Shown piece by piece: positions 13,918 through 46,100 of a DNA stretch of 64,000 nt (positions within the stretch are counted from its first letter, which is position 1; each line of letters starts with the position of its first letter). The notes beneath the pieces were generated by a model that saw only the letters and a list, made by a program, of their open reading frames with translations, was not told where the DNA came from and made no database searches. The stretch covers positions 310,001 through 374,000 of the forward strand of contig JAIWWG010000021.1 of assembly GCA_025435555.1 (NCBI GenBank). Reading direction: 5' to 3'. A program made the translations under genes and the position numbers. The stretch is from Chytriomyces cf. hyalinus JEL632. Lineage: Eukaryota > Chytridiomycota > Chytridiomycetes > Chytridiales > Chytriomycetaceae.

Positions 13918-16900
13918 TCAAACCATCCCACTCACCCATCGCACCACCTCAGCCAGCATTTCCATCTGATAAAATCGTGCAATATTTCCAAACACCTTCA
14001 ACTTTCTAATAAACTCCCCCCGTGATAACGTGGTAGTATACGCTCCAGAACACTCACACTGCAAATCCACATTTCTCGCTCGAATGTTTTTACAAAGCTT
14101 GCATTTCAAATCTTGAAGCTGCCAAAGCATGAGCCGCTTGGAAACTAAATCAATCAGTTTCTGTTCAATAGAGGTGCGGTCATACTCGGTCCCACAGGCA
14201 CTGCATAACCACTCGCGTGCAGAAACTTCCATTCGAGAAGTTGAACCGCCCCCGGCACCTTTTGTTTTCTTGTTCCTTGGACTTTTTTTGGCTTCTTCGT
14301 CGTCTTGGTGTGGATCCATGTCATCATCCTCGTCAGCATCATCGTTGCTGTCATCTTCATCTGACACGTATGCAGCCGCACCATCCGCTCGCTCCTCTTC
14401 ATCCTCATTTTCTTCAACAATCCGTTGAATTGGGAGAAGATCACGATCCCGCGTCAAATCCATATCCCGCGTCAAATTGCAATACTCGCAAATAATCTGT
14501 GGCAGCCGAAACGGTTCACACGGATTCACAAACACAGCTTCTTGCGCAAACTCTTTGATTCCCAAAACATTGAGCAAATCCCGCTTCAACACGCGTGTAT
14601 CCCGTTCAATCGTCTTGTCAAGCTCTAGGATTGCCAAGAGCGTTTTTACAAATTCTAGGGCAGGATTTTTGAATTCCAAGTGGGATCCGGGCAGGTCGGG
14701 GAATTGATGGTCGCTGGGGCTGTTGCTGTGGACTCGCCGGTCAATGGTTTCCACGTATGCGAGCATTTTTCGTTTCAAATGCTTTCCAATCAGCTCTCGC
14801 AGGAACACTGCCATGTCAATTGGAGTAGATGCCGTCACCGCCTCGGCAGCCTCTACACCTGCATCCTCAGGTGCAGCGGTACCTTCTTTAAGCCGTTTAG
14901 CCCTTCGCGTCGCTTTGTTCCGATGGACTTCATAAATGAAATGTCCGATAATCTGTTCAAACTCAGAATGCAGAACCGGCGGCAAGTAATCCATAATGTT
15001 CCACCGCATTTCAATTGTCATTGTCTCTCCATCCACAGTCTCAGAAACTTGCCGATTTTCTATAACGTCCTGCGGATTCTGACATGCAACTCCTCCGTAA
15101 TTGTGACGGTCCATCCAGATTAAATGATCCCAAAACTGCGTCACCGCAACATCAATATGCAAAAACAATGGCCGCTTGCAAATCGTCTCAATCACATACT
15201 TTGCATAATGGATCGCTTGCTTCAACGATGTCTTGCACGTTGACAAGACTAGCTTTTCAAAACTGCAATACACCAATTGACTTCCCAGCTGCTTAAATTC
15301 ACCAACAAACTGCAAAAACACTTTCCGCATGAGCCGATGAATCATGTTATACAATGCTGGGTCGTGCATGCGAGAAGCAGAGCTTGTGAGCCATCGGTAC
15401 AAGTGCTCTAGCATCATTTCTGCAAGTCGGTCATGTCGTGATTCAAACTGGTATTGCCAAGCTTGAACCATTTCTCGCATAATCCTGAAAGTGCGTGCGT
15501 TCACATGCTTTTCGTCAGATGTGTTTAGAGATGAAGTCGTCAATTGATGCTCCTCCGATTTAAGTTGCTCATTGTTTGCCGTCTTGAACTGATCATCCAC
15601 AAAGTTGGAGCCGGTAGCGATTCCATCCACTTCAGAGGAACCTTCGATTTCATTCACGTAGCTTGATTGAAGTACTGTGTTGAACGCCAGATTGAACATG
15701 TCTATTTCAACACAGACATTGGTATAAGTCCCTGGATGGTTGATTTCTGGATTGACTAGATCCTCAAGCTCGAGCTGGTGATCATCTTGCTCACGGCCGC
15801 CAAGGTCGGGTTTATCTGATGGCGAAAACCACAACACCATATCTGACTTGTGCAACCGCCGAGCGAAAAACACGTCAGCCAGAAAGAGCGGGTAGTCATT
15901 CTCAATGTTGCCGATAGGAATGTCAGAGTAACGTGACAGCTCAACACGCTCATTGAGAAAAGAGTTGATGTTCAAAAAATGCGACATCATTCGCGTTGAC
16001 GCTTGCGTTTGCCATCCCAGAGCCTGAAAGAGATTGTCATTCTTGTGCGACTGGATGCAGATGATGGGAAAGTCGTTCAGATGAGACAGTCCCGATGTTT
16101 GAAGTTGCCGCGAAGTTTTAGAAGACTGCAAAACAACCATTGTTGGTCCGCGGCGAGCATTTTGGTACTCGAAAATTGCAGCATTTACTGCCGAGATTGC
16201 ATCCGCATCAGTTTCATGCACCGTGAAAGATGTTGCCATGGTCTCGGTATATTCAAAAGCAATTCCAGCGGATTCACCCGGGGTTCGCTGAGTTGATTGC
16301 GTTTGGGAAGAAGAAGACTGGTACTGTGTTCCAGCCTCGCCGTCTGCGTCACCAGATCGGTCACCTCGTCGCTCGAGATAGACACGCCCCAAATTAGGAA
16401 CAGCCGCCCGATTCCGTGCAGGATCCACGTAAAATACCGCAACCTTGTCTCCCGCGGAGGAAAAGAGTCCGTAAATGTGTCGTGAACCACGGCCCGCGTG
16501 GTAAAGATATAGAATTTTGAGGTTCGAGTCTTTGAGGTACGGAACTTTTGAGAAGCTCATGTGCTGCAAGTCATTCAGCTCAAAACCAGCATTCAGATCA
16601 CGGCCACTATGCACACGGCTTGACGCAACAGTAGCAGAACATCCAAGATTCATCAAGGCGCGAAACAAAAGCGGGATTTGCGTCTCATACACTCCTTCAA
16701 CATCATGGTGGCAGAACATTTTGGCAAAAACGTCTGAATGCTCGTGATAAAACGCCTCAGTCATATAGAGTTCATAAAGATTCAAGCACACATGCGACCG
16801 TGGGAGGGTTTTTTGGCGTTTTTCCATTCGATATCCATTCCGATTAACGTCAACGTCTTCTGGCATGGGAACTCGCGAGTTGATATAAAACACACGAGGA

Positions 16901-19900
16901 ACTTGTAGCTTGACCTTGTACATAGAATCTCCGATTAGCGCCCACACAAAGAATTCGCCGCCAGTGTCAGTTGCCACAATTTGAAGAATTTGCCACGGCA
17001 GCCTTAAAATGGATTTCGTTTGCTGCACGAAGAAACTCTCCGTGTTCGACATTGCAGCTCGTCCAAGACGGCGCGTCATGCCTCCGTTGCTTTTAGAAGA
17101 AGCGACACCAACACTACCGTCCCACCCCCTATCCGCATGCATTCTGCGCCATTTGATTTTTTGGTATTTAAGCCATGCACTGTAGTTTTCAGTTGGGTCT
17201 GGAAGGATTGCCGGAATCACAATGTCGTCGTCAGTCGGATCTTGAACGGCGACCCGGCCGCGCTTTCGAACGTTTTTGTGAAAAGTAGGCTGAACGATTC
17301 CGTTGGGTTTAAGGGTGCCGCGGTCTCCGTCAGGAATCACATCTTCCATGTCTTTGTCCTTCACCCCTTCAGCAGCAGCAGCATGATTGCCCACCCCATC
17401 TTCATCAATTTCAATATCCAGAGGAACACTAAAATCTCCATAAGCTGTCCCAGCATGTTTCGAAAACATGTCCGTTATTTTCCTTTGTTTGAATCGATCT
17501 TCCATGACGGCCACACGTTTTTGAAGCCAATCTGGATGGCGAATTCTGGGCACAGGGTTTGATACTCCCTGCATTGCCGCCGGAATCGTGATAAGTTTTT
17601 GAATCACACTGCCAAATCGTTCCAGGTAATATCTGTTGATTGCGAAAACGATACAGATGCACTATTAGCTGGCAGAAAGCAATAACACGAAGAAAAAAAT
17701 GGACAACTAAACTGCCAATCGAGAATTTGTCGAATATCAATATCCAAAAGACTCGAGTCTTTCAGCCACTTTCGAAGGTAATGTTTTTTGATGGAGTCTT
17801 CGGCTTGGAAAATCGAAACCGGAATGGCGCGTTCGCTTACAGGTAGACCGACAGGCTTTTGAGAGATGATAAATTTACAAGCAAGGCCTTTGTCTTTCAC
17901 CATCGCATCTCCCAAGAACTCAGCTAGACGCTTTGCTGTACTGATGGATGTTGACTTTTGAGATCCATAGTCTTCCAGAGATTTGCTCATGCTTCGATTC
18001 TCTGAAATCAAATCGAACAGTTCGTCGTCTGGCACATCAGCACCCTTGCTGTACAGAACATCCAGCCATTGATTCGCAATTCCAGCAACAGCAGTGTAGC
18101 ATTCATCCAAGGTAGTTCCTTCGAGAAAGACTTTGAATAGTGCCGTTTGGAAAATTTTGATGAGTTTCAATTCTCCACGACGTTTGACTTCAAATCCTTT
18201 CAATTCCGCCAAGCTTCCGTCGTCATTAAATACCGCATAACGCTTTTTGAGGAGCTTGTCTTCCTCTGTGGACGATGGGAGAATCATGGCCTTATAGGGG
18301 CCGTCAACTTCGAAGAAAATACTATTTTCGCTTTTGACAACGTATTCGCGAATTGCAGCATGAGGATCTTTCAAATCTTGGTATTGATGATTCGTGAATT
18401 CAGCATGCACGAGATGGTTAAGCATCACACATGGGTACGAGATGTAGGCAGATTTCCCGTTCTTGAGTTTGAAGACAAAGTTTTCAGGGAAGCCTTTTGG
18501 TAGAATGAGCCAAATTCCGTCTGTATCAAGCTCCAGCGGTCTTCCCAGTTGCTCAACACGAGAACGGGCAAGTTGAATGATGGTAGATCCTGTCAAACAT
18601 ACGATTCCGGCCATCTCCATTGAGTACCACCGCGCACCTTTCCTCATGACGTAACCATAGAAAGAGTTCAAGCTGTTGTCATGAAATGCAGTAAAACAGT
18701 TAGTCAGAATCTTCGTATCGGGCCAGAATGAATATGACCCACATGCACTTGTGTGCCAACTGCAGAGAATCATAAACGACTGTCATTTTTTTCGCTTCGC
18801 TGACTGCAGCAAGGTCTCCATCCGAGACAGCGTCGTCAACCTTTTTCTTCCATGTTTTCAACAGCCCCTTGTAGGTATATCGTCGATCACGGAAGTTTCT
18901 GACCGTATCCACGTAGAAAGGATTTTCCCTTTGGCAAACAATCGACTCCTTGTCAATAACCTTGTTGACCAGCTTCCTTGCATAAATCTTTTTGCTGTAC
19001 TCTTCGACACGTTTTTTGATGTGGGCGTCCTGCTCCGACAAGCGAAGATCGTGAAAACTCTTTGAAGGCCCTGCCCCGCCGTTTGCATAGGTGGTCGGAA
19101 ACATTTCGCGCTCAAGTTGATTGCGAATCATGTTATATTCACTTCGTTTGGCCGGAAAATATTCTCCACGCCATGACCAAATCATGCGCCGCTGGCAACT
19201 GCTGTCTGGCCCTTCATTAAAGTCACAAGCTGCACAGTCATTTTCCGTCACAATTGCATCGGGCTGAAGACGGTTTGTCAGAATGATATTTGGGTACATC
19301 GCAGCAACGTCCAAGTGGTATATAAGGGGGAGACGCATGCGATTGGGTTCGTCACGGAGTTCAGTTAGATTTTCGACAATTGACGCCCGAATCTGACCAG
19401 CCAATGATATTTGAGAGTGAGAAACAACACGAATTGTAATGCTAACAGAAAAGTACCTCTTCATAGTTAACAACATCTTCGATATTCAATTGATGCTCGA
19501 CTTTGATACTGAACTCAAGTGCTTGATCAATTTCATCAATCAACTGCAATTGAAAGAATCAGTTCCCTTCAGCCTAACTTTCAACCAGAATTACTCACTT
19601 GCTGGTATGCAGAGGGAACAAGTTTAAACTGGGTCTCCAAATCACTGCGAAACACTCCTGCCTCGAGAGCTTCGACATGCCCTCCAACATACGTTTCACT
19701 TTCAAGCAAATGTCCCTCAAACAACTTTCCTGTTTGGTCTTGATGCTTGTTTGGCATCAGAACATTGGCTTTGTAAGATTCAACCTGCCCACAATTTCAT
19801 GATCGATTAGTACAACTCTTTTTGAGAAACAATTTCAGGCTTCACCATTAATAGAGTTTCACACAAGGTTCCCGATCCTCTTCTTAACACGTCATCCGGA

Positions 19901-22178
19901 TTCATGGGAATAATATTGCATAAAGAGAAAATGAATGGATGAACGTATTTCATGTATAAATAGTAGGTAGCCACGGCATCAGACACAGAGTATTGTGCAA
20001 GCGTCTGCGGTTGCTCTGCCGCGAACCTGAAGAATGGAAAATTTGAGATCCCAGACAATCAACTTAGTACGAGGTTTCAAACCGTGTCATGTCCTCAGGG
20101 TCTAGTTCCAAAGGATTATATCCAAGTTTATAGGTTGTAACCGCCTTAAAATGATCGGTTTTAGTCACACGTAATTTTGCGAAGAGGCCGGCAACAACCA
20201 AATGGCTACCTTTAAACCCTGACTTCCTTGGGGTAAATAACTGTCACGCTTCACCCAACAGAATGCATCCATATGGATCGCATGAGACGCTTTGTACTCA
20301 TCTTGGCTGTCTTTGCAGAACCCGATTTCCTGAGACGAAAAATCATATCCATCAATCGATAAGCTGAATAAAATGATAAGTTGATACCTTTTTTAAGGTC
20401 ATGCCATGCTGCTTTGCGCGCGCATCAATAAACGGCCAATCGAAAAAATCTCCGTTGTATGTCACAAAGACTGTCGGTTTTGACTGTCGAATATGATCGA
20501 AAAATCGGACGAGAACAGCTTTCTGAACACATTTGAAAAGTGTGCGAGTTAACATTTGATGTGTTTCATTTGACATAAGTACGACAGAAAAGCAACTCAC
20601 TTCATCTGCTTCATTGAAGATTGTAAATGGGCCCTCGTATTCGGGTTTTGGTGTGTAATCAAAGTCCTCAATATCGCATGAGACTAAAGCGCGGTTTGTT
20701 ATCAAAAAGCCCTTGAAAAAAAGAGGTTTATGGCCCGAAATCAGAATCCAGCAATAATGCGTCTTCCTGATATATACCTGCCCATCTATCATGTATGAAA
20801 TCATCATAATCGAATCAATCGCGGCATCCGGGAACTTGAGTGGTAACTTTGTCGTTTCGATATCAAACGCAAGCACGACAGGTTCTGCACGCTTTACTTT
20901 GTCTTTTCGTTCTTCGATAGAAATTCGGCCAAGCCCTGATGCTTTCACCTCATACCAAAGACCAACTCGGAAATCTGTGGACGCGATTAACCTCTTTTGG
21001 AATTCTGCCAATCTTCGATCACTCACCACAATCGATTGCGGCCCGAACGTAATACATGACATCATACTCTCGGATATCAGCAATATAATCTGCTGCTTCG
21101 CGTACATGTGCTTTTTTAGCTACTTTTCGTTCTGATTCACCGCCTTCCAGACTGCAAGGTTACAGGGAAATATCAGACACGCTACCCAAATGGGACACGA
21201 TGAATTCCTCACTCATTCATTCCTTCATAAGTTGATTCTGCGCTCATCTTTCCCTTGTTTGCCGTCACGATGGGGAAAATAGATTTTCTGACGCTCAGTA
21301 GGTTTTGCATGTTGTAGAAACTGAGTTTGATGACGGTTTGAAGTTTCCCAGACAGATGATTCGGCTAACGTGAATTTACATAAGCCTTCATATTTCTTTC
21401 AAGCAGATGCGCATTGGAGACTCACCAGCTTGAGGTCCTCCTTCTGCATGGTCGCGATGGATGATATCAGGCCTTGAAACGATCGACGAATGAAATCTTC
21501 CACGTCTGGTTCAGTACCAGGCTTGAAAGATGGATGATTAAGTTTTCGAACGTTTTCGGTCGTTGACAATCGCTTGGATTCACCTTGCACACGAGGTAAA
21601 AGTACGGCTCATAAAGAATGGTGACTTTGAAAGAGGCCCCATCTTCCTCAAGAAAATAGCAATCGATAGCTGCGTGTCCAGTTGCGCATTCCGGAGTGCG
21701 GGCGATAGTCTGATGTATATCGTGTTTGGTGTTATGGGGTCCGTTTAACGTCATCGCATTTCATTTCCGCACCTCGACCATGTTGACCATCCAGCCAAGA
21801 CGAGGCGGTCCTTCCGCAAAGCGTTCGAAACTAAAGCACATATCAGTGAATTGAATGCGCTCTCATTAGATTCGAAATAAGATGCAACGCAGGTAACTTG
21901 ATATGAGACAGGTCGCAATCCACATGTCGGTGACAAAGACGGGATAAGTAACAGTCGGAAACTCACCCCATCGATGCATCGAGGGAGTCCTGGGTGTTGA
22001 CCCAGTCAAACTTGATTGCAATGTCCACAGCCGATGACCAAGCACCAAGCGAGTTCTCAATGTCTGCCGCAGTCTCCTTGTCTTTACGCTGGGCGCTGAA
22101 ATCGTTCGTTTTGTTCGCAATGCCGAAGCCGCCCTTCTTCGCCTGGTTCGGTCCATCGGCGCCCCATTTGCGTTGCAT
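13918..22178 (-). CDS. DNA polymerase epsilon catalytic subunit (Pol2/POLE)
   Basis: Leading-strand replicative polymerase with 3'-5' proofreading. The start at 22178 gives MQRKWGADG. Exons towards the N-terminus are short; the C-terminal half is one exon of about 1,229 codons (17607-13918). Exonuclease motifs: Exo [12 protein letters not shown] near 20875, Exo [17 protein letters not shown] near 20450, Exo [19 protein letters not shown] near 19960. Polymerase motifs: [21 protein letters not shown] near 19290, [19 protein letters not shown] near 18640, [13 protein letters not shown] near 18520. The C-terminal inactive polymerase half and two Cys clusters follow. CysA is CEYC...CSAC, CysB is CKLC...CEC. 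All catalytic acids are intact. Unusually, an acidic low-complexity insertion of about 70 residues (14,400-14,230) splits the CysA module. The gene sits just downstream of CATSPERB on the same strand with a 92-nt gap. Confidence 0.96.
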
Positions 22179-22270: not shown

Positions 22271-25200
22271 TCAGAAGGACGCCTTCTTCTGTCGCTGCCT
22301 GTTCAGCAGATACGCGACAAGTAATATCACACCAAACGACACAGCGGATATGCTCATGTACGTCAGCGTGATTGCTGTCCGCGGCGTGGGAATGATCACA
22401 TACACTGCAAACCTGGGAGAAAACAAGTTCCAGTCAGTGCTACTGCTGTTCATGAATACCCGCGCTTTCACTCACTCAGCATACAGCGACTGGCAGTATT
22501 CCTTTTCCACGACCTTGAGTCTAAAATGGTACAACTCCGAGCTACTTGGCAACCAGTAGATACCGTCATGGGTGGATGGATCCAATGAAGTCGCACTTAA
22601 CACATTGGAGTTTCCGCAGACGATGCCGGATTTAATACCTGTGTTTACACAGGTTGAGAGAACAGATCAGTCGTTATCGCCAACATTTCAAAGTTTGCGA
22701 GATCGTACTCAGACAGTAGTCAGTCCGATTATTGAGCTCGACAAGCGTGTATCGCTTCATCAGCACAAAGTCATTCATGCCATCATCATGGACTTCAAAC
22801 TCCGGCCGATACAGCTCTTCATTCAGAACTCGTTCCACCTGCACAAAATATCAATTCGTTCGCCTCTACAACAAATATTGATTCTACAAACTCGATTCAT
22901 GCAGTCAGAGGCTGAAACTTTCATGGCATATCGTTGAGCATCCGTACAGTTGCAGGAAACGCGATCCGCCTTTCCTTGACACTGTTTATACTCTCCAGTC
23001 CGCTGGGAAACGCCGTACCGATTGTTGTGCCGAGGCAGAGAAGGGTCTGCGTTGTACATGTTGCCTGTTGTTGGGACAAATGCACCTAGAGCAGAAGGCG
23101 GCCTGTAATTCACCTGCACAAAGTTTAAGTCGTTTGCTGTGGTTTAGAAATAAGGTTCAAAGGCTCACAGGGAGATTTTCCAAGGCCGGCAAATTGTCCA
23201 AAAACACCGGGTTCCCATACAAATATTCATCGCGAGATATCGGCAAATGGAGTTTGATCTTTCTTGAGGGAGAGCAGCTGTTCAGAAGTTGAATTGGACC
23301 ATTGAAGGCAGATAGGCACAACAAAGACGCGCAAGCCGGCCGAACCGAGACACCAACGCGTCCCTGTAGTAGACATGTCTTAACAAAGGGCAATCATTCT
23401 AAACATGGACTGAATTTACCCCATTTCCAACGTCGTTCAAGGTTAAATTTGAAGATACCGTCCTCGCAAACCGGCTTGTTTGGGTTGAAATAGAAAAGTT
23501 GTACGCTTTTGGATTTGTTATAACGATACTTTGCTGCATGATGTTGTAGTATGGATTGTCAGCATAGGTTGCCGCTTGCATGTCAGAGAGAACGCTGACG
23601 CTTCCTTCGTAACTGACGAATTTAGCTGCCTGTCCGGCACTGCTCTTGAAGTTACTCCACGGACATTCATCCGTAGTCAGGTTCCAAGAGCGCGTCTGTT
23701 TCCTTAGTTTAAGATTTTACATTAACTTAAATTACAGTCAAAGGCTTTTTACCCTGTAAGGCTGTGTGGGAAACGTTCCTGGAGCGTACGCCTGATTCAC
23801 ATCAAACAGGCTCCATGAACCTTGAGCGTATGTCCCACTTGGCGTCTCAAACGGTGTGAGCTATTTTAGAAGCCACGTTTAGCTTCCAAAGAGATGTTCG
23901 TAGAAATGAAAAATAATACCAGTAGAGTGCTCGTTGCAGTGACATCTTGTACGATACCCCATCCATCATTCGTAGCAAGAAACATCCCCTTTAGTGCACT
24001 CGTAAATGTCAATGTCCCTGACGCAAGCGTGACTGTTGCAAGTCCGCTTGACACACTTCCGATTGTAATGCTTTGAGAATTTGTGTTGTACTCGATGTAG
24101 GAGCGGAAGTCGTACACGCTCCAGGACCCTGTTAACACAGTTCCGACTGTCAAGGGTGCCCGAATTACAGACACTGTAACATCAGTAGTGCTCGAATACG
24201 CGGTAATCAAGAACGACCCGAAATTTGCGACAACCGTCTTTCCCACATCGCTCGCGTACCAAACCCCAGAACCACTGCCGCTCAATGTAAGCGTTATTGT
24301 GGAATAGGAAGTGGAATCGCTGACGGTAGGTGAGGTGGTTGCCCCAGTGCTCCCAGTAATCACCAAACTCCGATCCAAAGCTGGAGTTCTAGTTGTAGAA
24401 TCCCCAACGAACGACTGAGTGATGACACAGTCCGCGACATAACCCTGCGAGCTGACGCTTTTTATGACTGCGGAGCCTCCAGTTGTCGCCAATACGATCC
24501 GCATTCCCACGTGAGAATCTTGAAACACGGCTCCGGTGACTGCACTCGATGCATAAAATTGCACGCGCCAGGGCCCGATAAACACGGGAACAATGCTTGC
24601 AGCAAACGAAACATCCAAAACACGCGCAGCGCTTTCTTTTGCGACGGACACGCGCTTCAAGTACGGGTCAAGCCAACCGCGGATATCCCCATTGGGACTG
24701 TTCAGAAATCCCAAGGGATACGACGACGAAGTGTCAGGATACGAGGTTGGCGTTGCGATCCATGTTGCAAACACAGTCCCCAACTGATCAATCATAACAT
24801 CTGCGAAGCTCAGGGCCGGTGGTTTAGCTGAGCTGATTTTCGAAACAGTCCTTGTGCCTGCTCGTGTGTTATAGAAATTCTTCAAATTTGTGACCAGCGC
24901 GATCGTGTCTTCGCCGACACTTGAGTCCAGCTTAGTAAAGCATTCATCAACAGTAGTGGATGTGAACGAAAACAGTTCGATCCAATTGCGACCACCGTCA
25001 ATCGAGTGCCACAGCCTCGAGCCGTAAGCGTAGAGATCCATCCCATTCAAATGAAGCGAAAGACCCACCAAGCTTGCGCCACTCGGAAAGGTAAATGAAA
25101 CTGAGGTGGCGTTTGATGTTGTGTTATGGAGCACGATAGCAGCAGACTTTGCGCAGCTGGCTGTGCCGCAGGAGGTACTAGAAACCCCCACAAGGTAAAC

Positions 25201-26955
25201 ATTCGAAGACAACGCTGCATATCGAGTCATTCCAAAAAATGAGTACGCGCTGCTGAGGCCAGAAATACTGGATGACAACAGCACATTGGACCAGGAGTTT
25301 GATGAGAGCTTTGCCTCTGTTGTATATATGAGAGAGCTTGCGATGGAGGTGCTTGGTCCAGCAAATGCCACGTAAAGATATGTCCCGCCAGAGAGCACGC
25401 AGTCTGCCGTTGAACCCAAGACAAGAGATGCTGGCAAAGCGGACGCGGCCCCATCATCAATCCTCGAAGCTCCCGTCATCACCTGACGAAAGGTGATTGG
25501 TGAAGTTTGGCCAGACCAAGGAATTTTGGAAGTCATGTAAAGTCCTCTGTTTGTGCTGAGCAAGACTCCGGTATGCATCACCACTGCGTCCTGTATCTGC
25601 AAGTTTTCGCAGTTTCGAACAACCCCGCACAGAGAAGCATTTGCCATGCTAACACCAATGGAAGGTTGAAGCAAGTCCCGAATGAGAGTCGAATTGTAAG
25701 CATTCGAAGTGGTGACAACAACGGCCCCAAGGCTATCTCCCAAATTCGATGAGCCAAGGATTGCCAGACCGGTCTTTTTAGCGCAAGAGTTTTGCCGGAC
25801 TTTGAAATAACTGGGTTGGTAACTTTTAGATTTCAGTGTCAAACCTGTGTAGGTACCGTCCGACTAGTTTCCAAACATTGAGTTTCGCGTGCCTCAACCT
25901 TTAACAAGCGTAAACCATGTCGCACCTTTTTTGAATCCAGCGAGAGTCCAAAAGAAGAGAAATCGACTTGCGGGGAAACGTCAAAATTGGTTGTCCTTGC
26001 TGTGCAACCCATCACATCTGCGTCGACAGAAGCGACGGATAGTGTTGAAGGGGAACTATCAGACGCGCTGTACGGAATATTTACACTCCAGGAATTCTGA
26101 TGTGCAAGAATTCTGTGAGCACATGCACTGGAAATGTTTTCGGGTTGTTACCGCTTTAGCGAGTGATGGAATTAGAGAACTAGCAGTCATATTCTGTAAA
26201 AACATCTGTGGAACAGGGCTTATGGAAACGAATGCTAACGAGACATCTTTTGATTTCGCCCCATTTGTTGGAGCACTCGGATCAAACATGGACACCGCAA
26301 CACTTGTTGACAGCCCAACGGCAGACATTGATGGTGCCCAACTACTTGACAAGTTGTATGAATAGCATCCGGTTCGAGCAGACACGTATATGTTCACGTA
26401 AACTGTGGAGGCTGGGAAGCTTGAGGCAGTGACTGAGTAGTACTGGACATTTGCATCAGCTGCCGAGTTTACGAATGCAGCGTCACTGACGCGTAGAACA
26501 GCGCGGTAATATCCAGGTCGAGAGTAAATCTGTGAGATGGGTCGTTGTTAGCTGCTTGACACGCATGTTGCTTAAAGGTACAAACATGGTATGCTCTCGG
26601 ATTGGAGCCAGAACTTGCATATGCACCATCACCAAACTCAAAACTGTAAAAGTAACTGCTGCTTGAAACTGGGAGCAGACTTGATGTCGCGTCAAACGTC
26701 AGTTCTGCTCGTTTGAGCTGCGTCAGATTCATTGCGACAAAAGCTTCGAACCAAGAGCAGTATTTACGCACCATCTCCTTGGTAATAAGCGCCGTCGAAA
26801 GAATACGCGCTGTGGACGGACAAGGATGCAATCGGATACGAGGACAAGGTTAACGATGCCACGTTTGATGTTAACACTGCCGCATTCGCCGTCTCAAATA
26901 GAAGAGCTGCTGCGCTGATCAATGCTGCCGCCATCATCTGCGGTAAGCGCGTCAT
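22271..26955 (-). CDS. CatSper auxiliary subunit beta (CATSPERB) homologue
   Basis: CATSPERB is the large extracellular, single-pass subunit that forms part of the canopy over the sperm flagellar Ca2+ channel CatSper. The start at 26955 (MTRLPQMMAAALISAAALLFETANA) gives a clear signal peptide. The longest exon (about 25840-23866) encodes a beta-propeller-like region with LDLYAYGSRLWHSIDGG-type sequence near 25040, at the position of the animal LYAYGNQIW-SVDGG motif. Nearer the C-terminus, VNYRPPSALGAFVPTTGNMY, NADPSLP, then a Lys-Gln-Cys/Cys-Asn-Cys-Thr block (23,119-22,930) follow the animal CATSPERB order closely. SSELYHFRLKVVEK, then EFAVYVIIPTP, one membrane helix (SISAVSFGVILLVAYLL) and a short basic tail RQRQKK end the protein at 22271. 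At least nine introns. Several N-glycosylation sequons. The pore-forming CatSper1-4 genes are not in this window. Identification rests on remembered family motifs, not a search. Confidence 0.88.
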
Positions 26956-27054: not shown

Positions 27055-30000
27055 ATGCGAGACGCAGACGGCCTGTTTGAAAGCCGCGGAGTTGCTGATG
27101 TTCGCGTGCTGCACAGCAAAATGGGGAGCGAGATTGAGCAGAAGAAGAAGGATCTGCGGCTGATGGTTGGGTAAGTGGACTAGCGGCTAATTGCAGACTC
27201 CGCTCATGCGAATGGAGGCATTCAGCTCAATCAAAATGCCATCCAACCTCGCATTGACGAATCGCATTGACGAACTAAGCAAACACTTGCAAAATTAGAG
27301 AGCGCTACCGCCATTTGATCGAAGCAGCGGACAGCGTGGCTCATATGAAAGAGGCATCTCTATCGCTTCAGCGTCTATTCGAAGGTGTATCCCAGCTCAC
27401 GCCCAGCAGCAGCGCCAAACCTGTTAAAGCGACCCCAAATCCGGCGTATCCAGGCGCTGTCCGTATTAAACTTCTTGTCGACACTCCGGAGCAGGTTTAT
27501 TCTTTGTGATCGCGCTCATCATTTATGCTGGAATTCATTCTCTTTCTATTTAGATCTGGAATGCGATCGAGTCAAACGCGCATTTGCGTGCGGCGAGGCT
27601 GTGGCAGGCGGCAAACTCAATCAACAGATCCCTCCAATCAGAAAACCTCGCCGACAACTTTCATATTCCTTTAACGTTTCCACTCGTGCAGCGCCAGTGG
27701 GACTCCATTGCCCACTTTCGCGAAAAAATCCTGAGCAAGGCGAAAGACGCTCTCAAGAATCCCTTTTTGCCGGAGCAAGTGAGTCTCACTTTGCACAACG
27801 CAATTCGTGCTAACTCTTTCTTTGTGAGGCTATCGCTGAGTCCATTTGCGCAATCATGCTTCTTGAGCGCATGACACAGCGACAAGTTCTGTCTGTTTTC
27901 TTGGCAACTCGAACGCAGTCTGTCGCCGAAATGAGCAACTTCAAAAACTTGGTCAAGACTAGCCCAACCATCCCTGACCTTCTCTTTCGAATTTCCTCGG
28001 TTATTCAGACGACCATTATCCAAACCGCGAAACTATTCTACCCTGTTGATGCGGCAGCACATCCACCTCTTGTCGAAGCTATGGTTCTAGAACTCTCAAA
28101 GCCTCTGTCTCTGACTGCTCAAGATGCTGCGAGCTCTTTGGCGCCGGTTGCTGCTTCGAATTCAATATACTCCCTCTATGCAGAAAAATCAAACATGCAC
28201 GTAATTTTCCGTCACTTGCCGTTACCGATCCAAAATCATGTGCCAGTGTTTAACATGGGAAGCAACGCGTCACCCGGATTTGTTGATCAGCAGTATGTTG
28301 TGCAAACTATGGACGCATGGATTAAAGAAATCGTGACTGATGTGAATCTTGGCGTTGTTGACGTTCTTCGGCATGTTTCTGGGGGTGCCCAACTTGCAGC
28401 GATTCGAGAAACTTTGATCAAGGATCTGCAAAAGCTTGAAAAAAGTCTCGATGCTGAAGTTGGGTTGAAAACCCCCGCAAAGGATGCGAACTGGGATTCT
28501 GCCGCGACCCATCCCGACTTGAAGAAAGCGGACTGGAATCATCTCTGTGTGCATTTAATTGGCCGAAAATTCTCTCTTTGGAATGATGTCTTTCGCGTTT
28601 TGTTCAAAGAAGTTTCAGTCGGAGCGATCGAGCGCTCATTTATGGAGCTTTCAAATCAGGTGGAAACTGTCCTTCTGCCTCTGATGCAGTCTTGTCATAG
28701 CGCTGATTCGAAAGGTTGTTTGATTTCTGGTACTTCATGTCTCCCCACCTATTTCTCAGTGATTTGATTGAATGGAATCTAGATTGGGATGTTTCCACAT
28801 TCATTTGGACAGCACCGCCGAAATCAAAGCAACAGCACGCGTCAAATCCAGCTCCATCACTCAAACCCTCTCAAAAGAATCCATCAGCGAAAATCGATTT
28901 GGGCTGCCGAGTGCAAACCCCATCCATTTTGAAAATCACCGAAACGTTCGAAGAAAGGCTAAATGAGATCAAAGCGGACATTGTGCCGCTCATCCACCCG
29001 AGATATTTTGAGAAACAACGTCGACCGAGTTTGTCTCCGTCGAAGGCGAGCTTTCCTGATGTGGTTGCAGATGATGCTGAGAGGTGATGATTGCCATTTT
29101 ACTCGTGAATCAATTCCCTGCCGAATATTTACTTGCATGGTATTTCGTAACTGAATAGGGATGTGGCTGGTTTCACAACCTCATTTCAAGAGAATTACTT
29201 GAAAGCCCTGGATAACTATCAAGAAAGGCTGCAGGAGCTACTTCAGTCTGTTTCAGGAAGCGCCTCTCCTGGTAGGAAAATTGAAAATCAAGTCACTAAG
29301 ATTGATGATCTGAGATCTTTTTTTTTTTTCAACGTTTGGTTTTCAGAATCCTTGGGTCAAATTATGTTCATTGCTCGTGCTGCTAAAGCTTTGGCCATCA
29401 AGGTGAAGTCTCTGAGCGCGCCAGTTTTATTTGTGCAAGAAGACGGTGGAAACGCTTCAGCAAGCACATCAATTGTCGCACGACTGAGAGAGCGGAATAT
29501 GAATCGCACAGAATCAGGTTCATAAACCTAGCGCGGACAATCTTGTGCGAAGCTTGCCAAGATCTAACTGGTTAATTTTTCTTTTTCATTGCATAGTGAG
29601 TCTTGTAGGGCTTGAATCTAGCCAGGCGCTACTCATGAAGGTGCATGTATCGGCCACGAAACTCTGGATTGACAAAATTGGGATCGATTTTGAAAAATCT
29701 CTTTCGCATGGGTTGAAAAATGAAGACTGGACCACCGGCTCGAAATTCTTGGGTGTCTGGGAAGGTTCGCTTCTCTCAAACATGGTTTATTTAGGAGCCT
29801 GAAACCCGTTTGTTTTGTGAATTCGCAGCAATTTCACTCGAAGCTAAAGATGAATCTGGCGAGACGCAGAAAGATCAGCTGAAATTCCCAGTTCACGTTT
29901 CTTCATTTGTGATTCAAGCGTTGCTTGCAGTTGCTTCCCAGTCAAACAAATACAACGGAGTTTTGTTGGAAAAGGTGTGTTGGTTTTTTTTTTCCCCAAC

Positions 30001-31274: not shown

Positions 31275-34200
31275 ATGGAACGCATCAAACAGCTGCAAAC
31301 CCACGTCGGCGTCCGCGAAGGCGACGATGCCAGCGTAACTACGCGGACACTTCCGGAGTCGAAGCAGCGGGAGCTGTCCATCGGCGGCGTCACTGTCAGA
31401 GTCAACGAACCTAAAAACATTGAACTGGTCCCTGTCTTCAACGATCCTTTTTATGCGGAGGCACAGGTTTGATAACAAGGAATCTGTGGAAGTCAGCTAA
31501 TCATTGCGTTGGTTTGCTGTTGCAGGAGATTCTTCGGCACTTTCGCTGGATGATGCAGAAGGACGCGTTAGGCCAGGTGACCATCTCACTTCCATCCTCT
31601 GATCAATCCAACTTAAGTCTTACTATGCCACACACGCAAAACTTTCAATGCATATTCACAGGACATGTTTCTTATTGGGTAGGAACTGGCGGATAGTCAT
31701 TTTCATTTGTACTTGCTTTTAAAAAACGCACCGCATTCAGCCCCCCAGGACCTTTCAAGCGCCATCTAGTTCAAAAATACGCGCAACTTGCCCATCGCGA
31801 GGTTGAATACATCTCGCTCTCGAAAGATATGACCGACGGTGACTTGAAGCAGCGGCGCGAGATTCGAAACGGAACCGCATTTTACACGGATCAGGCTTGT
31901 GTTCGAGCTGCGATCCATGGTCGAATTCTAGTGCTTGACGGAATCGAAAAGGCTGAACGCAATGTGCTTCCGATCATCAATAATCTTTTGGAAAATCGAG
32001 AAATGGCGCTCGAAGACGGCAGGTTTTTGGTGCACCCAAAGCGCTTTGATTTGCTTGTCGCCAGCCAGTCGGAAAGTGAGCTTGCCAAATGGAAGGTAAT
32101 AGAGCAGATATTGGTGACGCATAACGATTCATAACATTGTGTTCAATCAGCTCGTACGAACCTCCGAAAAATTCATTGTCATTGGCCTGGGTCTGCCTGT
32201 TCCTGTTAGTATATTTTCACTCCTCACTTTCTTCTGACTAATTCCCTTTCGAATATCAAGAAATACGAGGGTCATCCGTTAGATCCACCGCTTCGATCGC
32301 GGTTTCAAGCGCGAAACATCAATATTCCTACTTTCCTGACTCAAATCACCGAACTTGTCAAAATTGCGCCCAACGTTCCACAAAAAACTCTTGAAAAGCT
32401 CATATCAGTCGGAATAGTCCTTCGCGCAGAAGCAACTACGGCGCAATCCAGTAATACTGCTACCGTCGCCATTCCAGAGTTTCCAACGACTTTAGTACCC
32501 GTCGCTCGTATTCTTAACAAGGCTCCTGGAGTCAATCCGCGGTCACTCCTTGACAGTGTCTATCCGCATGCCTTGATGGAAACTCTCGAAAAAGAGCAAA
32601 TAAGCGTCATTGAGGCTACATACCAGCGCTTTGATTTTGGTTCCGAAGTGAGCGGGAAAAAAACCGCATCTGGCAGTGCGTGGGCATACGACTCCAATTT
32701 CCGCATCGCCAACATTAAGATTGTGAAAGGAAAAAAGCTCGACGCAATTGTCGACTTGATTCCCTCGTCCATGAAGAAATCCAACGCTTCTCCAATCAGT
32801 ATAACCGTCAAGCGAGGAACCAAAAAGCTTTCGGCCCCTCTGTTTTTTGTGCAAACCGACTATCACGCATCTTTGACTGCTAACCTTGTTCTGGTGCATA
32901 GTATCAGCGACATTTGTATCATCGGGCCGAAAGGTGTCGGAAAGAGTGCCTTATTGCGCGCCATGATCGACAGCCTGGGCTATTCAACCGAGTATATCCC
33001 GGTTTACAAAGACATGAGCGCTCGAGACCTTCTTCAACGACGAAGCACCAACTTGAAAGGAGACACAATTTGGGAGGACAGTGCGCTTGTCAAGGCTGCT
33101 ATCGAAGGAAGTTGTGCCGTGTTGGACGGCATCGAAGTCCTTGGCGAGGGTGTTCTTGCAAGCGTGAGCAGTCTCATTGGCGAGAGAGAAGTGGCGTTGC
33201 CTGATGGACGCATTCTGATTGGACGCGAAAGATACTCGTTCTTGCGTAAATCCCTTTCTGAACAAGAAATCGCGAATCGAAATGTGGTTCGGGTCCATGA
33301 CTCGTTCCGCATTGTGGCCTTGGCCCGGCCAACTTTGCAGCTGGGAGGACAGCGCGGAAACTGGCTCTCACCGGAGATTATGAACCTGTTCGTGTTTGTT
33401 CCCATGCGCACTTTATCGTACGCTGAGGAGAAGGAGGTCATCCAAGCAATTTGTCCAAGCATTGGGGAAAAGATATTGGATGAGCTTCTTGCCTTTGCAA
33501 ACACTCTGCGTGGTCTGCAAGATGAGAGTTTGAAGTCATTGGCGGGGGCTTTGAGTACTCGTCAACTGCTTCGCTGCGTGAGGCGGCTGACTCTTTTCCC
33601 TGAGGATTCTTTGCATGAAGTGATTCTGAAGGCGCAGTTGTGGCAGTTTTTGCCGTCACTGACCCGAGAGGCGTTGGAGCGCCTTTTGAAAGAAAACAAT
33701 ATTCTCAAAAAAGAAGAGGATGAAGTTGCATTTAAGGAGCTTACTTATAGCGTTCATGTCGAAAATGGGGTGGATGTGCTACGTATTGGGAACGGTGATC
33801 GCTGCTTTTGGCACGGCTATTTTCTTACACGCCAGTCCTAACAAATGGCCGTTTTTGATAGTTGCGCATCCTGTATCGAAGGACTCCAACAAACTGTTGA
33901 TTCCAGATATTGTATTCTACGATAATCCAAAACAGACTGCGGTGCTACAGGAAATGCTGAAAGATTACATTCTTGGAGAACACCTGCTCCTCGTCGGCAA
34001 CCAGGGTGTTGGTAAAAACAAGCTTGTGGACAAATTGTTGCAGCTATTGCAACTTCCACGGGAATACATTCAACTCCATCGCGACACGACCATTCACAGC
34101 TTAACATCCACACCATCCATAGTTAATGGAGTGATTGTTTATGAAGATAGCCCGCTTGTTAGAGCCGCACGCGAAGGGTACATCTTGGTGGTGGATGAGG

Positions 34201-40157: not shown

Positions 40158-43100
40158 TTACTTCTGATTGCGTCCAAACAGCTTGAGCAATTGCTCGCTC
40201 TGAAGCCGCTGCAGCTGCATTCGCTCCTGCTCCTGCGCCGCGAGCAACTGCGTCAAAAAGTAGTCGCCCGTCGACGAAGTTGCGCCAGGAGTTGAACTTT
40301 GCTGCGCTTGTTCTCGAGCTTCTTCGTCCGCTTTCGACATTTTCTTCAGTTCCAGTGCGAGAAGGCAAGCCTCAAACGGATCCATGCCTTTGAAAAATTC
40401 GGGTTGGTCCATCGTATACTGAACGTCTGTTTCTGCCACAACCGCGTCTTGCGACACAGTCGGAGCAGCATCACCGTTTTTGGACCGCTCGCCAGACTTC
40501 TCTTTCGTTCCTCCAGTCAATTGAGCATTCACCTTTGCGGCGCTTGTTGAATTCCTCCAATTTTTACCCGGATTCTGATTCCTTCGACTGACCAGAGTCT
40601 CCACTTCCTTCTGATTCTCCATAATCCATTTGAGCGCGTTCACAGAAGTTCGCCGCTTGGCCAGTTGTTGCGAGCTTCCGTTTTCCTCGGCAATATTGAC
40701 ATTCAATATATGAAAGTTGCACGAGAAACGCGTCACATCATTTTCAGTCAACTCTTGAAACCTGCAATCAGCGTTTTAAATTTTGAACTCCGAAAATTAC
40801 AATAGTCAACGCTTATATTTTACTTACGTGTACCAGATTTCCGGAGGTCGAAACCCTAGACTCTGCAGATGCTCGTGCAATTTCCGAATCGGACTCTTTT
40901 GCACAATCGATGGATTTACGCAAGTTTGCAGAAACCCTGCAAGCATTGGCTTCAACACTTGAAACACGACATTCAGGTTGTTGCCTGAATCCAAGAATAT
41001 GGCCCCAACAATCGCTTCAAACAAATCTCCCAACACTTTGGGGCCCTCAATGTCCACATCCAACGGATCTTTTGCAAGCACGCCCGGAACTGCCAAATGC
41101 GTCAAGTATGACTCCAACTCAGCCTTCAGAGGCGCTGATGACATTTGGACAAACTGGTGCAGTCCATACACGGCAGACAGACGACAAAAACTTTCGTTAT
41201 TCACTGCCGCTTGTCGAAGATCCGAAAGTTTGTCTGGCTGCAGGTCGGGGTATGTTCGAAAAAAGTGCTGCATCACAAGCCAATCCAGTACAGCGTCGCC
41301 TAAAAATTCCAATCGCTCGTACGATGCTCCACCAGAAATATGCGACGCGTGCGTCATTGCTTGCAAACCAAGTTGTGCGTTCTGAAACTGATATCTCATC
41401 CGCTTTTCCAACTTTCTCTGACTGAAACCAGAATTCAGCGTTTTCGGAGTGATACGCTTGGTTTCCAGAAACCGGGTGGAATCAGTCGAATCGCTGGTTT
41501 GAAAGTCCAAATTTTCCAAATCAGCAAGATTCAGAATCGCGTCCTCTGATACCAGCCCCAATTTCATCAGAAACTTTAAGCCACACTCCTCTCCACCGTC
41601 AATGACTACTGCACCAATCAGAGCTTCAACAAAATCAGCCAACCGCTTCTCACTGAAATGAAACTCAATTGCATTTAAACTGCCCGCCGATACGTCAGGT
41701 TTCCAAAACGGCCGTGGCGGATGCCAAAGACGTACTTTGAACGGGGAAACGATCATCAAACCGCCCAAATCAAAACTTTGTGCGATGCGAGCCAAGTTTT
41801 TGTTGCAAACGACCGCACTTCGAATGCTCGAAAGGTCCCCTTCATTTGCTGTTTCGTAGCGATGTATCAGATCAGAGGAACAAGTCAGTTTTAGAAACGC
41901 GTCGCCCAGGGTTTCAAGACGTTCATAACTGAACGGTTCCAACGCAGATGAAGCCGTAAAAGCGTGTTGAAGTGTTTGCATGGATAACTCGGGAATGTCC
42001 AAATCCGTACGAAGCTGATCCATTTGACAATAAGATTCAATCCGCCACAGTACAGAGGGGATAATCTGAGCTAATCGAGCCAATTCCGCAGGAAAGGGTA
42101 CAACGGTGCAAACATCCATAGAAAGAAACCTGACAAACGAATTTGTTTCAGGTGATTCGCTGTCGTTCTCAGTAGGCCGTGACGGCCGTGTGAAATTTTG
42201 ACGCGCAGGAATGCTGTGAACCTGAACAAGAGGCGCTTCGGGATGCGATAAGCTGTATCCGAGCTTCTCAAAGTACTCTCCAAAACAGGAGACACCAGTG
42301 AATTTGACCGTTTCAAAGTGGCTGCTTGCATTCAAATGTGATGACAGCTCGGCAGGCATATAGACAATTTTGTTGTGCGGCGTTTGAACTAGTGTTTGCT
42401 GAAGTACCTGATTGACTGCATCAAGAAGACCTGACGTTGAGCGTATGTTATTCCATATGACATCTGGCGATAAATCCGACATCTTTGAACCCGCCCTGCT
42501 TGCGAGACTATAGACTTTTTCGAAGGATGGCATCTGTCCGCCTGATTCAATTGAATTCCACAGAAGATGCAGCTCGTTGGAAGTTGCACCTTCAGTTGAG
42601 GTTTCTTCTTCTCTCTTCCGTTTTCCGCTGCTGCTTGACTCAATTTCCGATCTTTTATATGCGCGCTTTTTCGACCCAAGCCCAAGGGATTGAACGATAT
42701 CTGAGAACGACGATTCGACACCTTTCTCCGAGTCAGATTCATCAGAGCTTTCATCCGATGAGACGTCATCCGATAAATAATTGCTGTCTCCAAGAGTATT
42801 TGTGAAAGGAAGCTTCAATGTTCCTTCATGCCGATCCTGACCGGACCCAGTACTAAATCTTCGTTTTTTGGTGGACAACCGGTGCCGAAGCTGGGCACTC
42901 AACCGTTCCTGAAGAAGCAACACCCAATCATACAGTGTTACTCGTTCAGACGCGGGGTTATTTACGCGACGAATTGTATCCCAATCAATGCACCAATTGT
43001 GATCACTTGCAGAAAGCAAAGTGTCCGTATTCCATGGACCCGCTTTATAATTCAGGCCACTTTTTGGAGTCTCTTCTTGCTCATCTGAGTAGGCGAATCT

Positions 43101-46100
43101 TCGGCGCGGGTAGACGTGAGGCAACCCAATCATCGGAGCAATAAGATAAGCGGATTCTACGGGCTCAGGTGATTCGCTTGAGCTAGCAGTGGCGCCATTG
43201 GTTTTGTGTCGGTGAAGAACAAGATTCCAGAATTCTGACTGGAACTGCTTCAAAGACTCCCATTCTGATTTCAGCATTTGCACTGAATTGTCCTCTTCGC
43301 CCATTCGGGTGTAATTTGAAGTGAATGGGAAAATGTCAACTTTGGAGGGTGTAGACTGGAAGAATATTGGGAATGACGGTATTTCGTCTGTGGGAATTGG
43401 CTTTGCTGTTACGATTGCAAACGTTCGTCGAGGTTCGTTGGAGGGCGGATATGATTGCAGAGCATGGTAAAAGTGATTCTCCTGGCCCTGATTGGAGGCA
43501 TCTGAAAAAAGTCCTTGAAAGGCGCAAACTGGCGGATTTCTGTTTCGCGTGTAGATCTCTGCCTCAGGGCCAAGAACGAATACTGTGACGAAAACTGAAA
43601 CTTCTTCTTCTGAAATTTGAAACGGCTTGTTGTCCGATTGTGAGGATTCCGGCACAAATTCGTCCACAAGACCCTTCCAAAGGACAGATTTCGACAAGCA
43701 CTTTGGAATTTTCCGTCGATGCGCAAACAGAGCGTCCTCTTTTCCCTCTCCAGACGCCGGATCATACACGAAAAGTTGTTGCGCGCCATTCGACTTTTCT
43801 TTCTTTTCGCCTCGCGTCAGCTCCAATAACTCTCGAGCGAACGAAAATGTGCGACTGTGATTATTTTTGCGGTTTTTCTTGTATGCGGGCAGCAAATGAT
43901 CGTTGAGCAACCCACATCCATGGAGATACCGGATTGCTTCGATACCCGCAGATTGCATTGCTGCCTTTCGTGTAAAGCGCATGGATCCCACAATTTCAAC
44001 AGTCTCCTTGTCGTTGATTTCTGCATCTGACGGCGACTGAAGAAGAACGGTGAACACAAATCCTGACACAGATGTCTGACGAGGTAAAGCAATCGATTCT
44101 TCATCGAGCCCGGCAGATTTCCACAAAAGCCTTTGTTTTTCTTTGCGGCGCACATATTCATCCCACCCATCAATATTCGTATCGCTGTTTCCTTCAAGAA
44201 GAAGGCGATATTCTGGCTTTCCTCGAAACGCTCGAGATAAGACACCATTCACTCCAGACAACGTCGCAACGCTGACACCAGGTGCCCCACTTTTACGTGC
44301 GATCGAGTAAACATCTCCCGATCCAACAAACTCTGAAATAAGACCATTGTCCTCTTCGCCTCGAGAAACAGATGCGGCATTTGATGCATCTTCCGTTGCA
44401 GGCATCCGCGAGACAAGGGCTCGTGTCATCATTTCGGCGGCTTTTGCGTGGGAGATTGTTTCGACTGCGTGGGTATCGTTGCGCCGCACCAGGATTATAT
44501 ATTCGCTGCCGCGGACATCGCGCGCTCGTCCACGAGATTGCACGTAGCCAGTATTGGATCGAAACAAGTCAAAGATAATGATGAGTTTGCACGCGGGTCT
44601 AAATGCCGAAAAAAGGATCAGCCAAGCATTCAGAAAACTACTGTTGACAAGGTCAAATCTAACATATCAATGCCTTCTTCAGCAACTCTTGTGACAACAA
44701 GCAAGTTCACCTCTCCACTGCGAAACTGTTCCAGTGCCTGGTTTTGGATATTGGAGTTCATTCTGGCATGGGTGCTTGAATTGCTTCCTTGTCCCGTCAC
44801 AAAACCACATGCAATTCCTGGGAAATGCCGTGGCGCAAGCTGGGCCAACAAGTCACAAAGAGTCGATGCAGTTGTTCGCTTCTCGACAAAGACCATTGCT
44901 CGAAATGTCTTGGGGTTGCTGCGTCCGTCCTTGAATCTCTGCTCGATCAAGTTTATGAGAGACCACACTTTCGGGCCAATGTCTGAATCCTTCACTTCAG
45001 AAAGGTTCGGTATTGAAGGCAGCTCGCCGGTGATGACGGAAACGATTTCTTTTTTCGCCTCCTCATTTGAGTCTCCTGTTTTCTTCGCCAACCAGGCAAA
45101 AAGGTTAAGGAAAGATTGCTGGGTATACATGCACAGATTTATGTATACCTCTTCTCAAATGTCGCGCTTCGCTAACGCTGGAATATAGACATGAAGCCAG
45201 CCTTCCAGCGCACCAAACTCCCAAATCAATCTCAAGATCTTTGACAAGATTCAAGCACTTTTTCACAGAATCGGCAACGGATACTTCCTCCAACGCCTCA
45301 ATTCTTTTGAGAGCCGTGACGTAGAAATGAAAGAAAGCAGCAGCTTTGGTTGATCCAGGCTCCAGTGGGTTCCCGTCGGCAATCGAATCAAATAGCGTGT
45401 AACTTTGCGGATTGAATTCCATCAGATACTCTTTTGCTTGCGACACAAAACCGTCAAGGCTGTTTCGATCTGATACGGTCACAATTCTGCAGTCCAATGA
45501 CGCCTGAAGTTCGACGAGCCTAGCTTGCGAGTCTTCCAGTGTACGACTCTTTTGGAAGATGGGGCTCGCAGTCATTCCAAGAATCTGAAAGTTTTTTTCG
45601 TTCTCTGTTGGCATGGTTTTGCGTGTCCGAAAGAAAAGAGATGGTTGACATACCTTCGGACGATCTGGAACCGGCAATGGATTATAGAACTCATTCATGA
45701 TGAGCAGGTACGGGTGCGAACCAACAGCATGATGGCATTCATCAAAGACAATCAGGGATAGGTCTGCACCCATTTTTAAATATCCGTGCCTGAGCGTGTT
45801 TAGCAGAGTCTGCGACATTCGTTAATCAAATGGCCTCGCCTAAAAGTAATGCGGAAGACCAATTACGGCCAGTTTGATAGTACCTGGGGCGTGAAGACAA
45901 GCACGTGGCTGTCTGCAACTTGCTTTCGAAACTGGTCAAACGAGAGCGCCAGAAGAGACCCGGACTGGGATTCGCGAGTGAATTCGCAAACAATTAGATC
46001 GCTGGTGCGGCGCATTTTTTCAGACTGTTGGCGTACAAGGGCAACTGTCGGCGCAACGAAGGCAATCTTTTTTGGTTGCCTGGGCGACGAAGCAGAAAAC

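Follow-up and report, generated by a model that had tools for sequence, protein, structure and literature searches.

A CATSPERB orthologue with an N-terminal PKD domain in the chytrid Chytriomyces cf. hyalinus, and candidates for further CatSper genes in the same assembly

The DNA examined here, which we refer to as the window, is a 64 kb stretch of one contig (C123; JAIWWG010000021.1, positions 310,001 to 374,000) from the assembly of the chytrid Chytriomyces cf. hyalinus JEL632 (GCA_025435555.1), and our genome searches covered the whole of this assembly (37.8 Mb in 242 contigs). The minus strand of the window carries an orthologue of CATSPERB, the gene for the beta auxiliary subunit of the CatSper channel. 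Splicing by hand gave 12 exons and 11 GT-AG introns of 53–70 nt each, with an open coding sequence of 4,032 nt that runs from an ATG at 26955 to the end of the stop codon at 22271 and encodes a single protein of 1,343 residues (Table 1). Ten of the 12 exons were exactly reproduced by a homology-free gene finder, which departed from our model in exon 1, where it took a later ATG, and in exon 7, where it took a later acceptor; it should be said that this program was only partly independent of the hand-made model, as its codon table had been trained on long open reading frames in the window that included CATSPERB exon 5, and its splice weights were set with the CATSPERB introns already seen.

A Pfam profile search placed the window protein in the CATSPERB family, with CATSPERB_C (PF15149) matching at an E-value of 5.5e-42 (144 bits; cut-off 27), and CATSPERB_2nd (PF21548; 6.5e-10) and CATSPERB_head (PF22830; 7.5e-9) both scoring above the curated cut-off. 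The two top sequence matches in the PDB were also CATSPER-beta sequences (4.8e-31 and 5.6e-31). A first-pass annotation made from the DNA sequence had already named the protein as CATSPERB and had called for such a profile search, and its description of the protein was borne out as well: the three Pfam domains follow the animal order, the motifs NYRPPS and CNCT begin at residues 1127 and 1179, and the juxtamembrane motif ELYHFR begins at residue 1277. The signal segment and single C-terminal helix which it had also described were recovered by hydropathy, the sole basis for both calls in the window protein, as a hydrophobic N-terminus (residues 9–28) and one strong C-terminal hydrophobic segment (about 1309–1335), with a marginal extra hydrophobic window at residue 696 that is barely above threshold. 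When 14 family members were aligned, hardly any variation was seen in the NYRPP, NADP and several Cys columns, and none at the His of ELYHFR, and the C-terminal stem containing NYRPPS, CNCT and ELYHFR was the most conserved portion of the protein.

CATSPER-beta was likewise the best structural match to the predicted structure of the C. hyalinus orthologue (P0001), in which the C-terminal helix is found at 1101–1124; this fold test was made on a protein that is 88% identical to the window protein and lacks the first 209 residues of it. An alternative we considered is that the protein belongs to another propeller family (sortilin-like, xyloglucanase-like or WD40-like) and is like CATSPERB by fold only. 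This we regard as extremely unlikely and have rejected, as Pfam, PDB and fold matches all put CATSPERB first, by a wide margin in both sequence and fold, and the strongest match is to the stem, which is not part of a propeller.

The nearest protein is P0001 itself (Chytriomyces hyalinus HDU81_000424), whose 88% identity extends along 1,135 residues and whose model starts at window residue 210. Identities over the longest aligned stretch were 43% for Podochytrium sp. JEL0797 HDU98_003037 (P0005; starting at window residue 372), 43% for Physocladia obscura P0003 (starting at residue 232) and 40% for P0002 (starting at residue 226), a database record already named as CATSPERB family. The P. obscura model fuses beta with COG1, and the two are also neighbours in the window, where a COG1-like gene (so named for its likeness to P0003) lies head to head with CATSPERB in the opposite direction, with a predicted start at 27055 that leaves about 100 bp between the two starts. 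The gene order therefore differs between the two species, since the P0003 fusion needs beta and COG1 to be on one strand. On the other side, POLE, encoding the DNA polymerase epsilon catalytic subunit, lies directly downstream of CATSPERB on the same strand (window 13936–22178, minus; identified from POL2_thumb, DUF1744 and zf-DPOE matches to its large exons, with the start near 22178 placed by eye). The window is a stretch of raw assembly, and as such could in principle include foreign DNA contributed by an animal or by another flagellate, but the identity to the C. hyalinus protein, the position of the gene on one contig between POLE and the COG1-like gene, and the fusion of beta with COG1 in the P. 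obscura model make this a very remote prospect, and we have rejected an animal origin on the same grounds.

The animal CATSPERB proteins used for comparison (PDB chains 7eeb_E and 9ubw_E, and the reptile, fish and sea cucumber proteins P0008–P0020) include the top sequence and fold match, and share with the window protein the propeller, head and C-terminal stem in the same order, the NYRPPS / CNCT / ELYHFR motifs and the single C-terminal helix. Overall identity is low, at 22–34% over aligned stretches, and the window protein differs from them in giving no score with the CATSPERB_1st and CATSPERB_Ig-like models, and in having an N-terminal PKD domain, for which the animal proteins scanned gave no match.

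This PKD domain, a feature absent from the first-pass annotation, was identified at residues 57–120 by matches to PKD_4 (9.3e-8) and PKD (8.5e-7), both above the curated cut-off. The domain runs in frame into exon 3, where the frame is confirmed downstream by the C. hyalinus model, and as a prediction from sequence its place in the window gene is solid. PKD models were matched by two of the 14 family proteins scanned, the non-animal P0006 (6.3e-4) and P0007 (0.016) from Eukaryota sp. TZLM3-RCL, which also match CATSPERB_C (6.5e-46 and 8.9e-40, respectively). By eye, both have the PKD-like domain after an N-terminal hydrophobic segment and before a Cys–aromatic pair, as in the window protein, but unlike it their PKD scores fall below the Pfam cut-offs, and the Pfam models fail on their middle domains, which have diverged too far. 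No PKD match was found in any of the seven animal CATSPERB proteins scanned, among the precomputed Pfam domains of 13 animal CATSPERB entries, or in a Pfam scan of P0021. The four chytrid database models (P0001, P0002, P0003 and P0005) begin downstream of the PKD region and are uninformative in this respect, and for this reason the domain may have been missed in the automatic annotation of chytrid CATSPERBs. Similarly, no PKD chain appeared among the fold-search (VIA-align) matches for the P0001 model, as expected for a model without the PKD region. A phmmer search with window residues 1–330 against 20 proteins reported P0001, P0003 and P0002, and neither P0006 nor P0007, while a homologue search with residues 1–300, in which the candidates were capped at 7,994, returned the C. 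hyalinus protein and two PKD proteins and no new CATSPERB. It is possible, on these weak matches, that the PKD domain is shared with distant CATSPERBs.

Table 1. Features of the CATSPERB gene in the window (all positions are window coordinates).
Feature	Position	Strand	Basis or remark
CATSPERB orthologue, whole gene	22271..26955	-	12 exons, 1,343 aa; splice, Pfam, PDB matches
Exon 1: start codon, signal-peptide-like hydrophobic segment, beginning of PKD domain	26772..26955	-	
Exon 2: PKD domain core (FEFGDG)	26586..26704	-	
N-terminal PKD domain, residues 57-120, across introns 1 and 2	26473..26787	-	PKD_4, PKD
Exon 3: end of PKD domain and second N-terminal domain	26152..26529	-	Frame common to P0001, whose model begins within exon 3
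Exon 4	25926..26096	-	Splice
Exon 5: beta-propeller and head domain	23920..25863	-	Splice, Pfam
CATSPERB_2nd (propeller) match, residues 457-633	24817..25347	-	6.5e-10
CATSPERB_head match, residues 725-871	24103..24543	-	7.5e-9
Exon 6	23753..23860	-	Splice
Exon 7	23420..23695	-	Splice
Exon 8	23169..23363	-	Splice
Exon 9: NYRPPS and CNCT block	22892..23113	-	Splice, motif positions
Exon 10	22709..22838	-	Splice
Exon 11: ELYHFR motif	22476..22638	-	Splice, motif position
Exon 12: transmembrane helix (about 22375-22304), short basic tail, stop	22271..22412	-	Hydropathy; helix 1101-1124 in P0001 model
CATSPERB_C domain, residues 1090-1334, across exons 8-12	22301..23276	-	5.5e-42

The first-pass annotation had suggested searching the rest of the genome for the pore subunits and for gamma, delta and epsilon, and we found candidates for CatSper1–4, gamma and epsilon and no separate delta. 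There are 26 Ion_trans matches in the assembly, ten of which, in five loci, we read as CatSper pore genes, with one best-matching candidate for each of CatSper1–4; the labels are those of the best-matching CatSper chain among the 60 PDB matches listed, and were assigned without a tree. The C200 candidate matched CatSper1 (chain A; 2.7e-38, 135 bits) and the C236 candidate CatSper3 (2.2e-41; 146 bits for chain C against 50 for chain B, the figures being for the C236 copy only), in both cases as the first match in the list. The C68 candidate was assigned to CatSper2 (1.7e-42; 149 bits for chain B against 54 for chain C), and C212 to CatSper4 (chain D; 2.9e-31, 112 bits). The CatSper pore motif is T-x-D-x-W, with Asp expected in the filter. 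Two of the four candidates fit it fully, CatSper1-like C200 with TLDSW (spliced by hand at an intron whose acceptor is AAG) and CatSper2-like C68 with TLDQW, and the Asp is kept in three of the four, the third being the CatSper3-like sequence with CADGW, where Cys replaces Thr (the aligned PDB chain has TVDGW).

We note that the CatSper3-like gene is present in two copies (C236:74030-74667 and C7:35332-35981) which are 92.5% identical over 8.77 kb including the flanks, and which are either unmerged haplotypes or a segmental duplication. Only one of the remaining 16 Ion_trans matches was singled out, an Hv1-like match on C46, where two tandem genes with a voltage sensor only are found at about 314,090-316,600 on the minus strand. 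One of these copies matched 3wkv_A (‘Ion channel’) at 1.5e-7 and then a voltage-gated hydrogen channel at 0.0077 in the PDB, and the two genes encode a possible pH partner of the CatSper channel. A search for the sperm-type Na/H exchanger SLC9C gave 13 Na_H_Exchanger matches in the assembly; C68 is the only contig with both Na_H_Exchanger and Ion_trans matches, and these are more than 12 kb apart, which is weak evidence.

The CATSPERE candidate on C221 matched CATSPERD-E_C (1.1e-29) and CATSPERE_NTD2 (1.6e-11) in Pfam, and its best PDB chain was epsilon (7.9e-38) rather than delta (1.6e-20), while the CATSPERG candidate on C24 matched CATSPERG_C (2.6e-10), CATSPERG_Ig-like (8.1e-9) and the PDB gamma chain (1.4e-7). 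The profile search of the assembly found no second D/E locus and hence no separate delta, and this would be expected if delta arose later than the other subunits, as is stated in PMC5362262. A profile of an axonemal radial-spoke family matched 12 times, on three contigs. With both pore candidates and candidate radial-spoke genes in the assembly, we reject the possibility of a genome lacking CatSper pore subunits or a flagellum, which the first-pass annotation had named as evidence that would count against its reading.

From this, and at the level of genes, we consider it very likely that CATSPERB in the window specifies the auxiliary beta subunit of a CatSper channel belonging to this flagellated fungus. 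A number of observations weigh against this. The mean predicted local distance difference test (pLDDT) score of the P0001 model is 61.9 and the long structural alignments have root-mean-square deviations near 25 A, and the whole-chain arrangement taken from this model is not reliable. The animal CATSPERB_1st (PF21541) and CATSPERB_Ig-like (PF22831) models found no match in the window protein at a maximum E-value of 10; both may be animal-specific, since the non-animal P0001, P0002 and P0005–P0007 also fail them at an E-value of 1. In the assembly, nothing was found with the CATSPERG and CATSPERD propeller models or for the membrane partner TMEM249 (PF15158), in each case without a positive control, and the blank from the propeller models means little because the C-terminal models then found gamma and epsilon. 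Amongst the pore candidates, a shorter piece of C200 ranked two Nav channels first, the CatSper2 chain was fourth behind T-type Ca2+ channels for C68, and the CatSper4 chain was 35th behind multi-domain channels for C212; the multi-domain Ca2+ and Na+ channels outscore the CatSper2 and CatSper4 chains because their four domains add up. When the pore and tail of C212 were used alone, CatSper4 led CatSper3 by only 2.5 bits, with T-type and NALCN channels above both, so that it is the longer match which carries the CatSper4 label. Finally, the C212 pore reads TQIGW, with Ile for Asp, at C212:15746 inside one predicted exon.

The C212 pore also has a bearing on a further explanation, that the window protein has a CATSPERB-like ectodomain which no longer belongs to a CatSper channel and is an orphan membrane protein kept for some other task, such as adhesion or sensing at the surface, in which the PKD domain would do the binding. 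PKD domains are common in surface and extracellular binding proteins, and both the extra PKD domain, absent from the animal proteins scanned, and a CatSper4 candidate without the pore Asp are in keeping with such a role. We nevertheless think it improbable, as candidates for CatSper1–4, gamma and epsilon are found in the same assembly, and an orphan would not be expected to have its strongest conservation in the C-terminal stem, where NYRPPS, CNCT and ELYHFR lie.

As a CatSper subunit, the window protein would be secreted into the membrane and held there by its one C-terminal helix, leaving the PKD, propeller, head and stem outside the cell. According to PMC9205950, the beta, gamma, delta and epsilon propellers make up most of the canopy roof above the tetrameric pore in mouse sperm, the dimer interface is where two betas come into contact, and the complex disappears entirely from the flagellum when pore or transmembrane subunits are lost; the same seven CatSper subunits are given there for sea urchin sperm. 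By homology with the mouse complex, beta would stand over one pore subunit and join with the gamma and epsilon ectodomains to form a roof above the CatSper1–4 pore, and it is likely to tie the canopy and complex together and array the complex on the zoospore flagellum, where the channel would then admit Ca2+ and alter the flagellar beat. We infer the assembly, flagellar location, Ca2+ entry and use in zoospores. More tentatively, and with somewhat more doubt than confidence, we suggest that the ectodomain of an ancestral CatSper beta was tipped on its outer side by a PKD domain, which was kept by chytrids and some protists and lost by animals. In a zoospore array, at the place where betas meet in the mouse structure, this domain would give neighbouring channels an additional point of contact with each other or with an outside surface, so that the fungal array might be built or steered unlike that of sperm. 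The phmmer search with residues 1–330, which reported neither P0006 nor P0007, counts against this suggestion.

The first-pass annotation was right that CatSper had already been reported in flagellated fungi. Allomyces macrogynus is among the organisms searched in PMC5362262, which describes epsilon as being as ancient as CatSper1–4, beta and gamma (citing Cai 2014), and the one paper found that mentions CatSper together with Batrachochytrium or Chytriomyces dates from 2026 (PMC13358043). The beta gene is thus not the first of its sort, given also the naming of P0002 as CATSPERB family. What looks new is the N-terminal PKD domain of beta: a literature search, with most subscription journals outside it, found no paper whose listing describes either a PKD domain in CatSper or CATSPERB in a chytrid. 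The interest lies in the chytrid gene set and the PKD-bearing beta; that a zoosporic fungus has CatSper at all is not in itself the point. CatSper has mostly been studied as a sperm channel, and candidates for all seven core genes suggest that the complex is not confined to sperm cells; in chytrids it probably steers the zoospores. These are free-swimming and can be obtained in large numbers by culture, which would allow tests, apart from fertilisation, of what the channel and its large outer canopy do in general. The PKD domain poses a specific question about the evolution of the canopy.

Elsewhere in the window we noted a Dicer-like gene (40830-44597, minus) that has a Dicer dimerisation domain and matches RNase III domains twice, and a large gene (32210-33793, plus) with a dynein-related AAA_5 domain, which we presume may be VWA8-like.

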